A stretch of 6,012 nt of DNA from Synergistota bacterium (GTDB lineage: Bacteria; Synergistota; JAGHAJ01): assembly GCA_021161545.1 (NCBI GenBank), contig JAGHAJ010000134.1, positions 1 to 6,012 of the forward strand, read 5' to 3'. Every line of letters starts with the position of its first letter. Position 1 is the first letter of the stretch. The position numbers and the translations under genes are program-made. The notes beneath the pieces were generated by a model. The model was not told the origin of the DNA. It saw nothing but the letters and a program-made list of their open reading frames with translations, and made no database searches. This document shows positions 442 to 6,012 of this stretch, piece by piece.

Positions 442-1770
442 TTAAGGTGTAGGTTGGTATTCTTTGTCTATGAGAATGACGATTACATCGTTTACATTGG
501 TGTGCGTAGGCCCAGTTATGACGAGCGAATCTATTTTGTTGAAGAAGGAGAAGGAGTCGTTGTTTGAAAGATAAGAGAGTGGGTTTAAGTCTTTTTCTTT
601 TGCAAGTTTAAGGGTCTTCTCGTTTACTATTGCACCAGCAGCTTCTGTGATACCATCGTTTCCATCAGAGGCAAGTGATACTGCAGTAAATCCTTTCCAT
701 CTATCCATTGATATGGCCAATGATAAAGCGAGCTCTTGAGCTCTTCCCCCTTTGCCATTTCCCTTCACGGTTACAGTAGTTTCACCACCTATGACGATCA
801 TTTCTGTCTTTCTTGTGTTTGAAAGTAACTCTTCTTTTATAATGGCAGCTATAACCTTTGCAACTTCTTTTGCTTCTCCTTCTACGAAGCTTGTGAGGTG
901 GATGCCGTTTTCTATCCCATGTCTCTGAGCAGATTTGAGTATTTCTCTGCAAAAGTATCTATTGTCTGCTACAATCTTTATTAGGTCTTTTTGGAATGAT
1001 TTATCTCCGGGCTTTGGTGTTTCAGGGATAAGGCCTCTTTTACCTCTTAACAGATGTTCTTTCACACTATTTGGAACTACCTCCCATAGGTTATATCTTT
1101 TTAATGTGCTTATTGCATCTTCGAATGAAGAGGGGTCTGTTACAGTAGGTCCAGATGCTATCGAGGATATCTCATTTCCTATGACGTCTGATAGTATAAT
1201 GGTTATTACTGTTGCTGGGTGTGCAATTTGTGCCAGTTTTCCTCCCTTTAGGAAAGATAGGTGTTTCCTTACGGAATTTATCTCCTGTATAGTAGCTCCG
1301 CTTTTTAATAGCAGTTCTGTTACAAGCATTTTGTCTTTTAGAGTAATATTGTCAGGTGCGGGTAAGAGTGCTGAGCCTCCACCAGATATTAGTACAAGTA
1401 AGGTATCTTCAGGAGGGATACTTTTTGCAAAGTTGTACACTGCCTTTGATGCCTCTAATCCATTTTGATCAGGTATGGGATGTCCAGCTTCAATGACCTT
1501 GCATTTTTGTAGAGGTAGCGAAAAACCATACTTTGTTACTACTATACCATCTCTCAGATACCCTTTTAACATGTCTTCTGCTCCTTTTGCCATGGAACAA
1601 GCCGCTTTTCCTATAGCTAATAGGTGTATGTTCTCAGAGATAGGGAATCTATACTTGTCTATATACAAAGTGTTTTTTTCCACTTTTAGATGTTCTTTTA
1701 CTATATTGTCCCCTCTAACCTTCAGAAGTGCTTCGCCTATTATATCCTTTATTATATCTCTGTTGTTCAT
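442..1770 (-). CDS. Glycerate 2-kinase (MOFRL family)
   Basis: Cytosolic ATP-dependent kinase converting D-glycerate to 2-phosphoglycerate (the EC 2.7.1.165 type), which feeds lower glycolysis; homologues are often mislabelled hydroxypyruvate reductase (TtuD). Numbering from the outer GTG at 1782, visible landmarks are: LLAIGKAACSMAKGA (54-68) with the conserved lysine of the N-terminal GK domain; HPIPDQNG (101-108); SGGGSALLPAP (133-143), the glycine-rich substrate loop; NSVRKHLSFLKGGKLA (169-184); LSDVIGNEISSIASGPTVTD (197-216); then the MOFRL domain with GGETTVTVKGNGKGGRAQE (332-350), ASDGNDGITEAAGA (371-384) and TNVNDVIVIL (428-437). Length (442 or 446 residues) is normal and no key motif is lost. 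I prefer ATG 1770 because MNNRDIIKDIIGEAL fits the family N-terminus; GTG 1782 adds four residues and has its GGAG about 14 bases upstream. It is the last gene of the operon, 71 bases after dctM by the ATG start. No terminator is visible after it. Confidence 0.95.
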   Translation of the reverse strand: MNNRDIIKDIIGEALLKVRGDNIVKEHLKVEKNTLYIDKYRFPISENIHLLAIGKAACSMAKGAEDMLKGYLRDGIVVTKYGFSLPLQKCKVIEAGHPIPDQNGLEASKAVYNFAKSIPPEDTLLVLISGGGSALLPAPDNITLKDKMLVTELLLKSGATIQEINSVRKHLSFLKGGKLAQIAHPATVITIILSDVIGNEISSIASGPTVTDPSSFEDAISTLKRYNLWEVVPNSVKEHLLRGKRGLIPETPKPGDKSFQKDLIKIVADNRYFCREILKSAQRHGIENGIHLTSFVEGEAKEVAKVIAAIIKEELLSNTRKTEMIVIGGETTVTVKGNGKGGRAQELALSLAISMDRWKGFTAVSLASDGNDGITEAAGAIVNEKTLKLAKEKDLNPLSYLSNNDSFSFFNKIDSLVITGPTHTNVNDVIVILIDKEYQPTP

Positions 1771-1790
1771 CAAGGGTGCCACTGTATCAT

Positions 1791-1800
1791 CTTTCTCTCC
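1791..1800 (-). promoter_or_regulatory. Shine-Dalgarno upstream of the kinase, aimed at a mini-ORF
   Basis: On the minus strand, AAAAAGGAGAG precedes an out-of-frame ATG (1788-1790) by six bases, the ideal distance. It sits 14 bases from the kinase GTG (1782) and about 26 from the kinase ATG (1770). The out-of-frame ATG opens a six-codon reading frame (M-I-Q-W-H-P, stop TGA 1770-1772) that overlaps the kinase ATG by one base (TGATG). The ribosome may therefore reach the kinase by coupled re-initiation. The site is clear; the coupling is inference. Confidence 0.45.
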
Positions 1801-1812
1801 TTTTTAGTATAT

Positions 1813-1832
1813 GGGGGAGGCCATCCTCCCCC
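1813..1832 (-). promoter_or_regulatory. Intercistronic GC-rich hairpin between dctM and the kinase
   Basis: GGGGGAGG (1813-1820) and CCTCCCCC (1825-1832) form a perfect 8-bp stem with a four-base loop. In the operon transcript it lies just after the dctM stop and about 12 bases before the kinase Shine-Dalgarno. The sequence after it on the minus strand is ATATACTAAAAAGG, with no U-run, so it is not a standard intrinsic terminator. It may protect the 3' end of the transporter message, pause polymerase or set the kinase-to-transporter ratio. A perfect ten-base palindrome, CCGTTAACGG (1831-1840), overlaps its base by two nucleotides. Confidence 0.6.
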
Positions 1833-1841
1833 GTTAACGGC

Positions 1842-3188
1842 TTACATCATGTGATTTGGCAGCCATAGTATGAGTTGTGGAAATACGCTAAATAAGAATA
1901 GCGATCCGATAATTATAGCTACAAAAGGGAATACTCCCCTTATTATGTCGCTCATAGTAATACCAAGTTCTGGTGGGGCGGTGCCTCTAAGAACGAATAT
2001 GGACATTGCCATAGGTGGCGTTTGGAAGGCCATCTGTAGGTTTATGCATATCATCATCCCAGCCCATAGGGGATCAAATCCTAATGCTGAAATGATAGGG
2101 GTAAATATGGGTACAATTATAAACACTATGCCTATCCACTCTATAAACATTCCAAGTAGGAATACGATTAACATTATTACGATGAAGGCTCCCCACTTAC
2201 CGCCGGGAACAGACATTATCAGGCGAGCTACAACATCACCTCCACCAGCGCTCATGAATACACCAACAAAAGCATAACACGCACCAGCTATTAGTACTAC
2301 AAATGAGCTTACACGGAGTGTCTCTATTCCTGCCCGTTTTACCAGATTCCAGCTGAACTTTCTATATACGATTGTTAGTATTACAGCAGCTAAACTACCC
2401 ATTGAAGCTGCTTCTGTAGGAGGGGCTATTCCTAAGAATATGGTTCCAAGTACCGATAGTATGAGAAGTACAGGTGGAAGTATGGCTTTTGCAATCTTTG
2501 TTAATCTTTCCTTTACAGGGATGTGCTTTCTTTCTTCAGGTGGCAGTGCGGGACCCAACTCTGGCCGTAGTGCAGTTCTGACTGCAACATAAGTGATATA
2601 GGAACCTGAAAGGATTAAGCCTGGAATGAAGGCTGCCATGAACATCTTGCCTATAGACAATCCGGCTTGTGGTCCATATACTACTAACATTATGCTGGGA
2701 GGTATTAGAATTCCCAATGTTCCACTTGCAACCACTGTTCCTGCAGCTAAAGATTTGCTGTAGCCTCTTTTGACCATTGGCTTTAAGGCAATCAGGGATA
2801 ATATTGTTACAGATGCGGTGATAACGCCCAGACACGCAGCGAGGATGGTTCCAAATATTATGGTAACTATGGCTAATCCTCCTCTGAGTCCACCCAGGTT
2901 TTCATACAATACTTTGTACAGATCTTCGGTTATTCCTGAATATTGAAGAACTACTCCCATAAAGGTAAATAAGGGAACAGCCAGGTATGGGTAGTTTAGT
3001 GTCATTGCATATAGCCTTGTATATAGGATATGTAGTGTAATGTCTTCACCAAATAGTAGGTATCCAAATATCAGGCCAAGACTTCCTATGACAAATGCTA
3101 TTGGGAAACCTGTTAATATAAGTATCAACAAGGTTGCGAACATAAGGATTGTGATTAGTTGGGTGCTAACTTCAGTCAAGGTGCTCAC
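1842..3188 (-). CDS. dctM: TRAP transporter large permease, DctM type
   Basis: Integral inner-membrane subunit that forms the ion-coupled translocation path of a tripartite (TRAP) importer, working with DctQ and the periplasmic DctP. The 448-residue protein is almost wholly hydrophobic, with about 11-13 membrane segments and no insert or truncation. Family landmarks: GFPIAFVIGSLGLIFGYLLF (27-46), VPLFTFMG (71-78), GTLGILIPPSIMLVVYG (156-172), the P-P-T-E-A-A motif in GIAPPTEAASMGSLAA (253-268), and FLLGMFIEWIGIVFIIVP (343-360) followed by QMAFQTPPMAMSIFVLRG (385-402). The last block resembles the FcbT3 (mannitol/chloroaromatic-like) branch, which matches its partners. Start: the outermost GTG at 3188 is given, but it lies inside the TAAGGGGTGA ribosome binding site; TTG at 3179, eight bases after GGGG, is the likelier true start (445 residues). 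It overlaps the end of dctQ by 17 bases (8 if TTG), so translation is probably coupled. Confidence 0.96.
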   Translation of the reverse strand: MSTLTEVSTQLITILMFATLLILILTGFPIAFVIGSLGLIFGYLLFGEDITLHILYTRLYAMTLNYPYLAVPLFTFMGVVLQYSGITEDLYKVLYENLGGLRGGLAIVTIIFGTILAACLGVITASVTILSLIALKPMVKRGYSKSLAAGTVVASGTLGILIPPSIMLVVYGPQAGLSIGKMFMAAFIPGLILSGSYITYVAVRTALRPELGPALPPEERKHIPVKERLTKIAKAILPPVLLILSVLGTIFLGIAPPTEAASMGSLAAVILTIVYRKFSWNLVKRAGIETLRVSSFVVLIAGACYAFVGVFMSAGGGDVVARLIMSVPGGKWGAFIVIMLIVFLLGMFIEWIGIVFIIVPIFTPIISALGFDPLWAGMMICINLQMAFQTPPMAMSIFVLRGTAPPELGITMSDIIRGVFPFVAIIIGSLFLFSVFPQLILWLPNHMM

Positions 3189-3690
3189 CCCTTACTACAA
3201 AATATATGTCTCTGATGAATTTCGCTACTCCTTGGAGAGTTAAGAGATAAACCCCTATTGCAACTATTGTTCTGTAAGGGGCAGCAGGTGGGTACCAAAA
3301 TGTAGTTGTCATGGTTTCGTGAATTCTCCATGCCCTTATCGCCCAGGATGTAGCTGTTATGTCCAATGTTATCATTAGAGGGAAAAATAGGAACAACGAT
3401 AATATGGTGTCTAGCTTTGCTTTACCTCTTGGAGATAGGCGTTGGTAAAACATGTCCACTCTTGTATGTGCATCATGTAGATGATCATATGACCAGCCCA
3501 ATGTGTATAAAGTTCCACCAGACATGCATAGTACATCGTATGCCCAGATGGTTGGTGCGTTGAAAAAATGTCTCATTATGGTATCGTAAGCTCCGACTAA
3601 TACCAAAACCCATGCAAACCACTTTGCAGTGCTTCCAGAATGTTCACTTATGCGGTCAATTGTCCTTATAATTTTTATTGGAAGCTTCAT
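3172..3690 (-). CDS. dctQ: TRAP transporter small permease, DctQ type
   Basis: Small membrane subunit that binds and orients DctM and helps dock the substrate-loaded DctP. The 172 residues hold four hydrophobic segments (roughly 23-40, 50-68, 95-116 and 137-155), the family number. Conserved-looking blocks are IWAYDVLCMSGGTLYTLGWS (48-67), HDAHTRVDMFYQRLSPRGKA (72-91) and WYPPAAPYRTI (132-142) with LTLQGVAKFIRDI (150-162). The D-x-H-x-R-V-D and P-P-x-x-P patterns fit the FcbT2-like branch rather than the shorter C4-dicarboxylate DctQ type. ATG at 3690 is the only conventional start; its nearest Shine-Dalgarno (GGGAG) is about 14 bases upstream, longer than ideal. The reading frame is open back to the dctP stop but has only a CTG as a possible upstream start. 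The gap to dctP is 27 bases, and the 3' end overlaps dctM. Confidence 0.94.
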   Translation of the reverse strand: MKLPIKIIRTIDRISEHSGSTAKWFAWVLVLVGAYDTIMRHFFNAPTIWAYDVLCMSGGTLYTLGWSYDHLHDAHTRVDMFYQRLSPRGKAKLDTILSLFLFFPLMITLDITATSWAIRAWRIHETMTTTFWYPPAAPYRTIVAIGVYLLTLQGVAKFIRDIYFVVRGEHLD

Positions 3691-3717
3691 TATGATAAGG
3701 TTGTCTCCCTTTTGCAG

Positions 3718-4758
3718 TTATTGTGTGCTAAAATACGCCTTTTTATAGCTGTTCATTGAGTTAAGTATCTTTGCGTATATTCCACCGTATTCTTTCGCCT
3801 TTTCTTTGTAAAATTTGTCAGCTTCTCTTGATATGGCTTCTTCAACCGGTTTTGGAAGCTTGTATACTATACACCCATATTTCTTAAACTCCTTAAGGGC
3901 CTTTATAGACTGGTACACTAAGTATTCGTGTTGTGCTTGCGTCCATTTTCCTATTATATCGCGGACCAACTCTTTTAGATCGTCCGGCAGCTTGTCCCAT
4001 GCTTGCTTATTCACGAAGAATACCTGCGGATCACTTGGTGCACGTACAGGGGAGAGTATTACGTATTTTGCAATCTCATTGAAGTGCATCTTCCAATTTG
4101 TGGCAAGGGTTGAGTACTCAAATGCGTCTATTGTACCTCTCTGCATAGCTTCAAAGAGCTCGCCACCTGGTAGAAACACTACATTTGCTCCTAACCTTGA
4201 CAATATTTCCCCTCCATCCCCAGCAGCTCTTAGTTTTAATCCTTTTAGGTCTTTTACTGTTTTAATCAGTTTTTTAGAGTGTAAGAAGACTTCGGGTGGT
4301 AAGGGAGCAAGTGCTCCAGGGAATGTTAGGATATTGTAGCCCTTCATCATCTCGTTCATAAGATCGGCTCCTCCTCCATAGTCAAACCATGTACGCAGGG
4401 CTTCTCCAGGCAGACCTCCGGGTCGTGAGCTAATCAGTCCCGCAGCTTTCCATTTGTCAAGATTGTACATTGGGCATGTATATGCCATTTGAAGGACACC
4501 ATCGTTTACTGCATCAAGCTCGTGGGTTGCTGGAACTACAGATCCTCCAACAAAATGCTTTACTATTAATCTCCCCCCGCTTGCCTTGGTTATCGCTTCG
4601 CATACTTTGTCATGAAATATCTGAGAGGGATCAGATGCAGGTCCGTGTCCTGAAGACTTCCACACAATTGCCTTTGCCATAACCCCATTACTTACCCCTA
4701 AGAAGGACACACTAACCAAAAACACTACAATAAAAATAAATATTGCATGCTTTTTCAT
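3718..4758 (-). CDS. dctP: TRAP transporter periplasmic solute-binding protein, DctP family
   Basis: Extracytoplasmic receptor that captures an organic acid and delivers it to DctQM. From ATG 4758 it is 346 residues, typical for the family. An N-terminal signal peptide is clear: MKKH, a hydrophobic run (5-22), then NGVMA with likely cleavage after Ala28 (or after Ala30). The mature part starts with IVWKSSGHGP. GLKLRAAGDGGEILSRLG (173-190) supplies the conserved Arg177, which in TRAP receptors pairs with the ligand carboxylate; PGGELFEAMQRGTIDAFEYS (197-216) follows. This layout matches the TakP/FcbT1 branch (keto- and hydroxy-acid receptors), but where many members show E-W followed by V-G-P, this one has EYSTLATNW. 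ATG 4758 is chosen over GTG 4767 because the GTG lies inside the strong AGGAGGTG site, eight bases before the ATG. No lipobox cysteine is seen. The ligand is unknown; the neighbours suggest glycerate or a related acid. Confidence 0.95.
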   Translation of the reverse strand: MKKHAIFIFIVVFLVSVSFLGVSNGVMAKAIVWKSSGHGPASDPSQIFHDKVCEAITKASGGRLIVKHFVGGSVVPATHELDAVNDGVLQMAYTCPMYNLDKWKAAGLISSRPGGLPGEALRTWFDYGGGADLMNEMMKGYNILTFPGALAPLPPEVFLHSKKLIKTVKDLKGLKLRAAGDGGEILSRLGANVVFLPGGELFEAMQRGTIDAFEYSTLATNWKMHFNEIAKYVILSPVRAPSDPQVFFVNKQAWDKLPDDLKELVRDIIGKWTQAQHEYLVYQSIKALKEFKKYGCIVYKLPKPVEEAISREADKFYKEKAKEYGGIYAKILNSMNSYKKAYFSTQ

Positions 4759-4764
4759 AAAGCA

Positions 4765-4773
4765 CACCTCCTA
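4765..4773 (-). promoter_or_regulatory. Ribosome binding site of dctP
   Basis: The minus strand reads TAGGAGGTG, near-perfect to the 16S anti-Shine-Dalgarno, with GGAGG eight bases before ATG 4758. It rules out the GTG at 4765-4767 as the start, since that triplet is part of the site. Confidence 0.8.
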
Positions 4774-4787
4774 TTTAGTTTGATACT

Positions 4788-4813
4788 GGAATGGTTTTAT
4801 TTACACCACCTCC
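4788..4813 (-). promoter_or_regulatory. Leader hairpin covering a second, upstream Shine-Dalgarno
   Basis: About 41 bases before the dctP ribosome binding site the leader carries a second strong one, AAAGGAGGTGG (4806-4816). Its GGAG-G-TGGT can pair with ACCA-TTCC across a nine-base loop (GTAAATAAA): eight pairs including one G-U, with one bulged G. No ATG, GTG or TTG at proper distance opens a real frame; an ATA eight bases downstream starts a nine-codon frame ending at TAG. It may be a ribosome standby site, a decoy, a relic of a lost small gene, or chance. Confidence 0.3.
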
Positions 4814-4865
4814 TTTCTATATTTAAAATAGCATAACTCTTCTGGACTTTCTATGTACGATTTGC

Positions 4866-4894
4866 ATAATAAATGCTGGTATATGACCTTTAAA
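4866..4894 (-). promoter_or_regulatory. Candidate sigma-70 promoter for dctP-dctQ-dctM-kinase
   Basis: On the minus strand TTTAAA (4889-4894, four of six matches to TTGACA) and TATTAT (4866-4871, five of six to TATAAT) are separated by exactly 17 bases. Transcription would begin near 4859, leaving a leader of about 100 bases. A weak -35 is usual for activator-dependent promoters, which fits control by CdaR. AT-rich sequence makes chance matches common. Confidence 0.4.
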
Positions 4895-4895
4895 G

Positions 4896-4911
4896 TAGTT
4901 CAAATTGACTA
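4896..4911. promoter_or_regulatory. Near-palindrome abutting the -35, candidate operator
   Basis: TAGTTCAAATTGACTA contains 7-bp arms, TAGT(T)CAA and TTGACTA, with one bulged T and a single central base. Its centre lies about 44 bases upstream of the predicted start, where class II activators such as CdaR-like proteins could touch polymerase. The position and symmetry are seen; binding by CdaR is inference. Confidence 0.3.
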
Positions 4912-4956
4912 TTTTGTGCTTTGTAGTTTTGAGCAGATAACAAAAAATGGTGTCCT

Positions 4957-6012
4957 TTACGAGCTTTGGTTGAATACTATAGCGAGGTATAGTTGAACTG
5001 CATCATAGAAGTTTAGAGGGTCTTTCCCTGTTAGGGTGCGGATCTTTCGTAAGTGATTATTTACGGTATTTCTGTGGAGATGTGCTGCTTTTGCAGTCTT
5101 ACAGATGTTGAATCCGTTGTTAAAGAATGCAGTAAGTGTTTGAACGAGGTACTCTTTCCCTTCCAGTCCTTTTAGTGTTTCAGTTATAAAGTTCTTCTGG
5201 ATATGGGTAGGTATATTGGTGAGTAGTTCTTCGAATACAAGCTCGTCAATGAAGTAGATATCAGCGCTGTTGTTGAATATTTCACCTATATGCAGTGCTT
5301 TTAGTGCTTCTTGATAGGATATGTGGATACCGTGTATACCCTGATGGTATTTCCCTATACCTACTTTGACAGATGCCTTTCTTATACCTTCAATGTAGCT
5401 CTTTATTCTGCTGAGATAGTGGATTATCCGTGCTTTCTCATCTTTTGATGGGTCTATGTGTTTGAGTATGAAGTAATTATTCCTGATGTTTGAACCAACG
5501 ATATCGCTGCTATTTCTCATGAAACCTCTTATGTCTTTTATGAATTGCTCTCTTTCTGCTTCTTCACTTAGAACGGTATTTTTACCTTTTTGGGAATCTC
5601 CTCTTATGGCTATAACTATCGCTATTCTTGGAAGAGTTAGGTCAAATCCGAGCACTCTGCCACGGTATATCATGGCTTCTTCAGCTTCCTCAAAGTAGCC
5701 GTTTAGGAGATCATTCAAAAACCTCTCCTTTGCAAGTGAACTGAGTCTTATTTCCTTGGTTAGTATGTTCTGTTTTATCATGAGTTCTACAGTCATTTTT
5801 ACAAGTCTTGTGTAGCTCCTTATTTCATCAGGTGGTCCTGTTACTCCGACCACTCCTGCTATCTTTCCGTCTATCTCTATAGGCATATTTATTCCGGGTT
5901 TTGTACCTTCCAACTTTTGGGCAGTTGGTATGTCTATCTCTAATGTCTTACCTGTCTTGATCACGATAGAAGCACCTTCGTGATATGTATCTATTCGTTC
6001 CTTGTCACCGGA
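4957..6012 (-). CDS. CdaR-family sugar-diacid/glycerate-responsive regulator (5' partial)
   Basis: Cytosolic transcription factor; E. coli CdaR is activated by D-glycerate and switches on galactarate, glucarate and glycerate genes. The frame stays open to the window edge: reading upstream of the GTG at 5964 gives S-G-D-K-E-R-I-D-T-Y-H-E-G-A, exactly the conserved stretch of the N-terminal diacid-recognition domain, so the apparent start there is false. The visible 351 residues lack perhaps 35-40 at the N-terminus. Order: sensor domain to about residue 80, including KPGINMPIEIDGKIAGVVGV (38-57); a GGDEF-like CdaR domain about 126-260 with VGIGKYHQGIHG (217-228) and SYQEALKAL (232-240); and a C-terminal PucR/CdaR-type helix-turn-helix, NICKTAKAAHLHRNTVNNHL (302-321) then RKIRTLTGKDPLNFYDAVQL (322-341). 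It is upstream of and co-directional with dctP, 198 bases away, and likely controls it. No hairpin terminator follows, so read-through into dctP is possible. Confidence 0.94.
   Translation of the reverse strand, partial: SGDKERIDTYHEGASIVIKTGKTLEIDIPTAQKLEGTKPGINMPIEIDGKIAGVVGVTGPPDEIRSYTRLVKMTVELMIKQNILTKEIRLSSLAKERFLNDLLNGYFEEAEEAMIYRGRVLGFDLTLPRIAIVIAIRGDSQKGKNTVLSEEAEREQFIKDIRGFMRNSSDIVGSNIRNNYFILKHIDPSKDEKARIIHYLSRIKSYIEGIRKASVKVGIGKYHQGIHGIHISYQEALKALHIGEIFNNSADIYFIDELVFEELLTNIPTHIQKNFITETLKGLEGKEYLVQTLTAFFNNGFNICKTAKAAHLHRNTVNNHLRKIRTLTGKDPLNFYDAVQLYLAIVFNQSS

Follow-up and report, generated by a model that had tools for sequence, protein, structure and literature searches.

The locus described here raises the question of which compound its TRAP transporter brings into the cell. 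The stretch of DNA that was analyzed, called the window in the following, is the whole 6,012-bp contig C27 of a Synergistota MAG (G000; 1.58 Mb, 82% complete) and carries five genes, cdaR, dctP, dctQ, dctM and gckA, which follow each other in this order on the minus strand. A preliminary description had read them as a CdaR-type sensor, a TRAP importer and a glycerate 2-kinase, and this gene content was confirmed by Pfam for all five genes, with all matches above the cut-offs. The accompanying statement that only three functions are present holds for the window; beyond the contig ends the compactness of the operon can be checked in relatives only. With a probability of roughly 70% we assume that the window represents a D-glycerate utilization operon, for which ligand and stereoisomer, inducer, product of the kinase and coupling to a cation are predicted.

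The transporter is encoded by dctP (3718..4767, 349 aa; Pfam DctP, E 9.6e-36) for the solute-binding protein, dctQ (3172..3690, 172 aa; DctQ, E 2e-16) for the small membrane subunit and dctM (1842..3188, 448 aa; DctM, E 1.3e-79; TIGR00786 above cut-off) for the large one. The reading frames of dctM and dctQ overlap by 17 bases, and PF03480, PF04290 and PF06808, all above cut-offs in adjacent genes, identify a complete DctPQM set and thus a TRAP transporter. The regulator gene cdaR (4957..6012, 351 aa read, 5' end missing) has the domains of the CdaR/SdaR-type family, namely Diacid_rec (E 6.6e-33), GGDEF_2 and the PucR-type helix-turn-helix HTH_30. As the Diacid_rec match begins at profile position 33, the N-terminus has been lost at the contig end, and the truncated protein reached 176.6 bits with the NCBIfam CdaR equivalog NF008550 (cut-off 612). 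Glycerate is cited as the signal of CdaR in a passage of PMC4551912.

The last gene, gckA (442..1782, 446 aa), encodes a MOFRL-family (class II) glycerate 2-kinase (DUF4147, E 1e-80; MOFRL, E 1.4e-37; 271 bits for PF13660 and 128.5 bits for PF05161), which has matches to solved structures, namely the putative glycerate kinase 2b8n (E 1.3e-83) and PH0495 (1x3l, E 3.3e-94). The scores with the NCBIfam glycerate 2-kinase equivalogs stayed below the cut-offs (274.9 versus 550 for NF041176 and 228.2 versus 670 for NF040791), and therefore we claim the MOFRL family for gckA and not these narrow equivalogs. MOFRL and PF02595 are different Pfam families, which represent separate classes of glycerate kinases, and no PF02595 match was found in the 82% complete window genome. 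Both glycerate kinases of E. coli produce 2-phosphoglycerate (PMC4378991).

The contig breaks inside cdaR at one end and beside a transposase remnant (138-358) at the other. This remnant shares 95% identity with Mutator-type transposase DNA of contig C21 in the same genome, where the transposase fragment lies near a C-terminal CdaR fragment with 94% identity to the CdaR of the window (L004, 1024-2125). As far as can be judged from the sequence, the shared transposase and CdaR DNA suggests that the element either caused a rearrangement or marks the place where the assembly broke off. Contig C21 also carries a second MOFRL kinase (59% identical to that of the window), which adjoins a homologue of the LarA-type nickel racemases and a branched-chain-type ABC transporter (L004, 2122-9357). 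The LarA homologue has Trp-Gln at the alignment position of W358-T359 of LarA1, and a glutamine at that site has been tied to glycerate activity in LarAH43 (PMC11770544), which makes the protein a candidate glycerate racemase. Four more loci (L139, L140, L145, L146) have LarA homologues at a distance of roughly 1.6 to 2.2 kb from a MOFRL kinase, and in L054 and L096 such homologues are located near dctPQM. In the gap between dctM and gckA, positions 1813-1832 form a perfect 8-bp G+C-rich hairpin with no T run behind it, possibly an element for mRNA processing or attenuation. A promoter and terminator scan of the window yielded no more sites than shuffled sequences, and an Rfam search of the window gave no match.

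To place the transporter, relatives of DctP were gathered by scanning species genomes and by several searches within phyla. Close DctPs with 63-84% identity (alignment A1) are found in Atribacterota, KSB3, one deltaproteobacterial MAG, Spirochaetota, Synergistota, Alphaproteobacteria and Desulfofustis. A plasmid search at E 1e-60 revealed no close DctP, and in samples of 375 genomes from the phylum of G072 and 385 from the class of G071 only the centre genomes matched at E 1e-120, so that the transporter is rare in both groups. The neighborhoods of 42 locus entries, corresponding to 41 distinct loci (L035 overlaps L049), were scanned for selected neighbors using local HMMs derived from members that Pfam had identified, and the counted kinases were verified with Pfam except for L041 and L048, where the assignment comes from NCBIfam glycerate 2-kinase models below cut-off and PF13660 in the genome search. 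A glycerate kinase directly adjoins dctPQM in 12 of the 41 loci, whereas our rough estimate of the chance expectation is about 0.02 loci (assuming a kinase frequency of about 1 in 2,500 genes and two possible positions on the same strand). Four of these kinases are of the MOFRL type and are located 3' of dctM, in the window, L041 (Spirochaetales), L048 (Desulfofustis) and L124 (Synergistota family f11). The other eight belong to PF02595 and lie 3' of dctM in the spirochaete L046 and ahead of dctP in seven Atribacterota loci (L038, L049, L089, L091, L092, L094, L095). The spirochaete DctPs L041 and L046 are sisters in the tree (97/89) and have unrelated kinases, MOFRL versus PF02595, in the same slot after dctM. 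A side observation is a PF02595 fragment of about 76 codons in L040 (3195-3422), between dctM and a GarR-like gene, which is perhaps a kinase remnant.

In the kinase tree the window gckA groups with its own paralogue on C21 and L041 groups with L048, the L124 kinase is separate from both, on a long branch of uncertain position, and most other gckA genes of Synergistota form a clade of their own. The transporter-adjacent MOFRL kinases thus occupy three places, one of them being the unsure long branch, and this pattern suggests that MOFRL kinases were joined to the transporter at least twice, perhaps three times, and PF02595 kinases at least twice. On the genome level, a MOFRL-family kinase above cut-off is present in 20 of 24 tested genomes and PF02595 in the remaining four, including G074 with only a PF02595 fragment, while G006, counted under MOFRL, additionally has PF02595 below cut-off; the test takes in G002, G004 and G042 with only more distant DctPs (39-42% identity). 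The control genomes have MOFRL in 4 of 14 and PF02595 in 5 of 14 cases. As MOFRL may be general in Synergistota, this genome-wide presence is weaker evidence than adjacency. MOFRL kinases also occur near other TRAP genes (L130, L137, L146), which counts against the reading as a glycerate operon.

The regulator recurs as well. Two Atribacterota loci, L049 of genome G073 and L094, have a CdaR-type regulator in the order cdaR-glxK-dctPQM, which for G073 was assembled from two contigs overlapping by 488 bp at 97%. The DctP of G073 falls into the window clade (99/100) and is 83% identical to that of the window, whereas the CdaR proteins share 39%. These values fit a separate recruitment of CdaR, with faster divergence of CdaR as the alternative.

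The solute-binding protein itself was inspected in an AlphaFold2 model with a mean pLDDT of 86.2. TakP, 7ug8 and 4pet were retrieved as fold matches and TTHA0766 slightly lower (Z 35.3 for TakP, 2hzk, and 31.9 for TTHA0766, 2zzv); TakP and TTHA0766 are also among the best sequence matches, with about 23-26% identity. In TakP the carboxylate is held by Arg177 and Tyr100 and the cation by Glu214, Glu240, Gln156 and the backbone of Trp215 (PMC1839085). Arg177, Tyr100 and Glu214 align to Arg180, Tyr101 and Glu217 of the window DctP, which are invariant in 21 relatives, and Trp215 aligns to Tyr218. Fold and carboxylate pair place the protein in the TakP/TTHA0766 branch and uphold the TakP-like placement proposed before. 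The cation ligands Gln156 and Glu240 correspond to Pro157 and Pro244, with the invariant Glu159 and Asp246 nearby, and the cavity residues F40, V97 and T213 of the TakP pyruvate site are replaced by Gly42, Cys98 and Phe216, again invariant in the 21 relatives. Judged from alignment and model, the pocket fits a small 2-hydroxy or 2-oxo acid and would be unlike that of TakP, and glycerate is not singled out among such acids.

Since two unrelated kinase families recur beside the transporter, a CdaR-type regulator stands in two Atribacterota loci and a reductase-like gene in one or two, glycerate or a compound one step away from it is the simplest substrate, though not a proven one. The earlier proposal that the transporter takes up glycerate itself is thereby supported, as either of the two kinase families stands beside close DctPQM sets in Atribacterota, Spirochaetota, Desulfofustis and another Synergistota family. 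In one alternative, which we consider unlikely, a precursor such as hydroxypyruvate, tartronate semialdehyde or a glycerate ester or conjugate is imported and converted ahead of the kinase by enzymes encoded elsewhere. It is supported by the GarR gene 3' of dctM in L038, which scores above the tartronate semialdehyde reductase cut-offs, and the similar gene 3' of dctM in L040, and it is in line with the 2-oxo acid binders within the TakP branch. A GntR-FCD regulator and a metallo-beta-lactamase-fold hydrolase, the nearest solved relatives of which are 2p4z and 3h3e (the latter named uncharacterized), are located ahead of dctP in L048 (6269-7821), L043, L044, L046, L047, L053, L055, L056, L098-L101, L119, L120 and L126. 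This context is commoner among the relatives than the kinase context, which counts against the glycerate-operon reading, and the hydrolase, located beside dctP in many relatives and accompanied by a kinase in L046, L048 and L124, likewise speaks for a precursor; a weaker homologue lies 3' of dctM in L089 and L091. However, the window has neither a reductase nor a hydrolase gene, and what it shares with the Atribacterota cdaR loci is the kinase.

A second alternative, which we regard as quite unlikely, is that not glycerate but lactate, pyruvate, glycolate or similar small 2-hydroxy or 2-oxo acids are taken up by the transporter, the kinase being a passenger or part of a second pathway. Pyruvate, 2-oxo acids or lactate are indeed the ligands of the closest solved relatives of DctP, the GntR regulators that adjoin many of the relatives show similarity to LldR, PdhR, GlcC and also NanR, all below cut-offs, and 29 of the 41 loci have no adjacent kinase, partly through contig ends. 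On the other hand, kinases of two unrelated glycerate kinase families recur beside this transporter, the CdaR-type regulator recurs in another phylum, and the residues of the TakP pyruvate cavity are changed in DctP and its relatives. According to the preliminary description, glycerate uptake would be refuted if genes for aldarate dehydratases or aldolases were consistently present in homologous loci, and no such gene was found among the selected neighbors of the relatives' dctPQM scanned with Pfam. A search for PF04295, the family of galactarate dehydratase and altronate hydrolase, gave no match in the incomplete window genome nor in G063, G065, G070, G073 and G074; G006 and G072 do have this family, on contigs other than that of the transporter. 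That the operon is a remnant or part of a glucarate/galactarate pathway with dehydratase and aldolase upstream of cdaR or elsewhere is thus very improbable, even though the E. coli regulon includes CdaR and a glycerate kinase, the contig stops inside cdaR in an 82% complete MAG, and HpcH/HpaI-family and NAD_binding_2 proteins, which are common and uninformative genome-wide, are encoded elsewhere in G000.

Under the preferred reading of glycerate import, DctP would, by analogy to TakP, capture glycerate in the periplasm by the Arg/Tyr carboxylate clamp and probably with a bound cation, and DctQM would import it on an ion gradient. The MOFRL kinase would then convert glycerate to 2-phosphoglycerate, which enters lower glycolysis, and the CdaR-type regulator is predicted to turn the operon on in the presence of glycerate. 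Furthermore, we think it rather likely that the whole DctPQM subfamily of Synergistota, Atribacterota, Spirochaetota, Desulfofustis, Alphaproteobacteria and others is a glycerate-specific TRAP family that was repeatedly joined with two unrelated glycerate kinases. This proposes a testable ligand for a TRAP subfamily of largely uncultured anaerobic lineages, and the exchange of unrelated kinases in one operon slot offers a route to the substrate of a transporter. If true, glycerate would join the known TRAP ligands, and these Synergistota and Atribacterota would be predicted to use it as a carbon source.

Compared with known systems, the window resembles the E. coli CdaR regulon (gar/gud, garK) in combining a CdaR-type regulator with a glycerate kinase. 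It differs in the unrelated kinase family and in lacking genes for an aldarate dehydratase, an aldolase and a tartronate semialdehyde reductase, and the gar/gud importers of E. coli are MFS proteins, whereas the window encodes a TRAP transporter. With TakP and TTHA0766 the DctP shares the fold, the carboxylate arginine and tyrosine and one cation glutamate, and it departs from them at two cation ligands and three cavity residues. In the searched literature on glycerate with TRAP transporters or solute-binding proteins, titles and the beginnings of abstracts mention no glycerate-type TRAP system. The closest parallel is sdaR-grtP-garK of Shewanella, a D-glycerate system without aldarate enzymes, in which GrtP is a GntP-family permease for D-glycerate and deletion of grtP abolished growth on this compound (PMC2996990). 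Like this Grt system, the window has its CdaR/SdaR-type regulator gene clustered with the genes for a dedicated importer and for a glycerate kinase, and no aldarate enzymes are encoded beside them. In contrast, its importer is the three-part DctPQM instead of a GntP-family permease and its kinase is of the MOFRL type instead of the PF02595 kinase GarK, although the Atribacterota relatives do have PF02595; therefore, the window is a variant of the Grt system and not a member of it. The logic of sensing, import and phosphorylation is already known from Shewanella, and what is new is the combination of a TRAP importer and a MOFRL kinase within this Grt-type logic.
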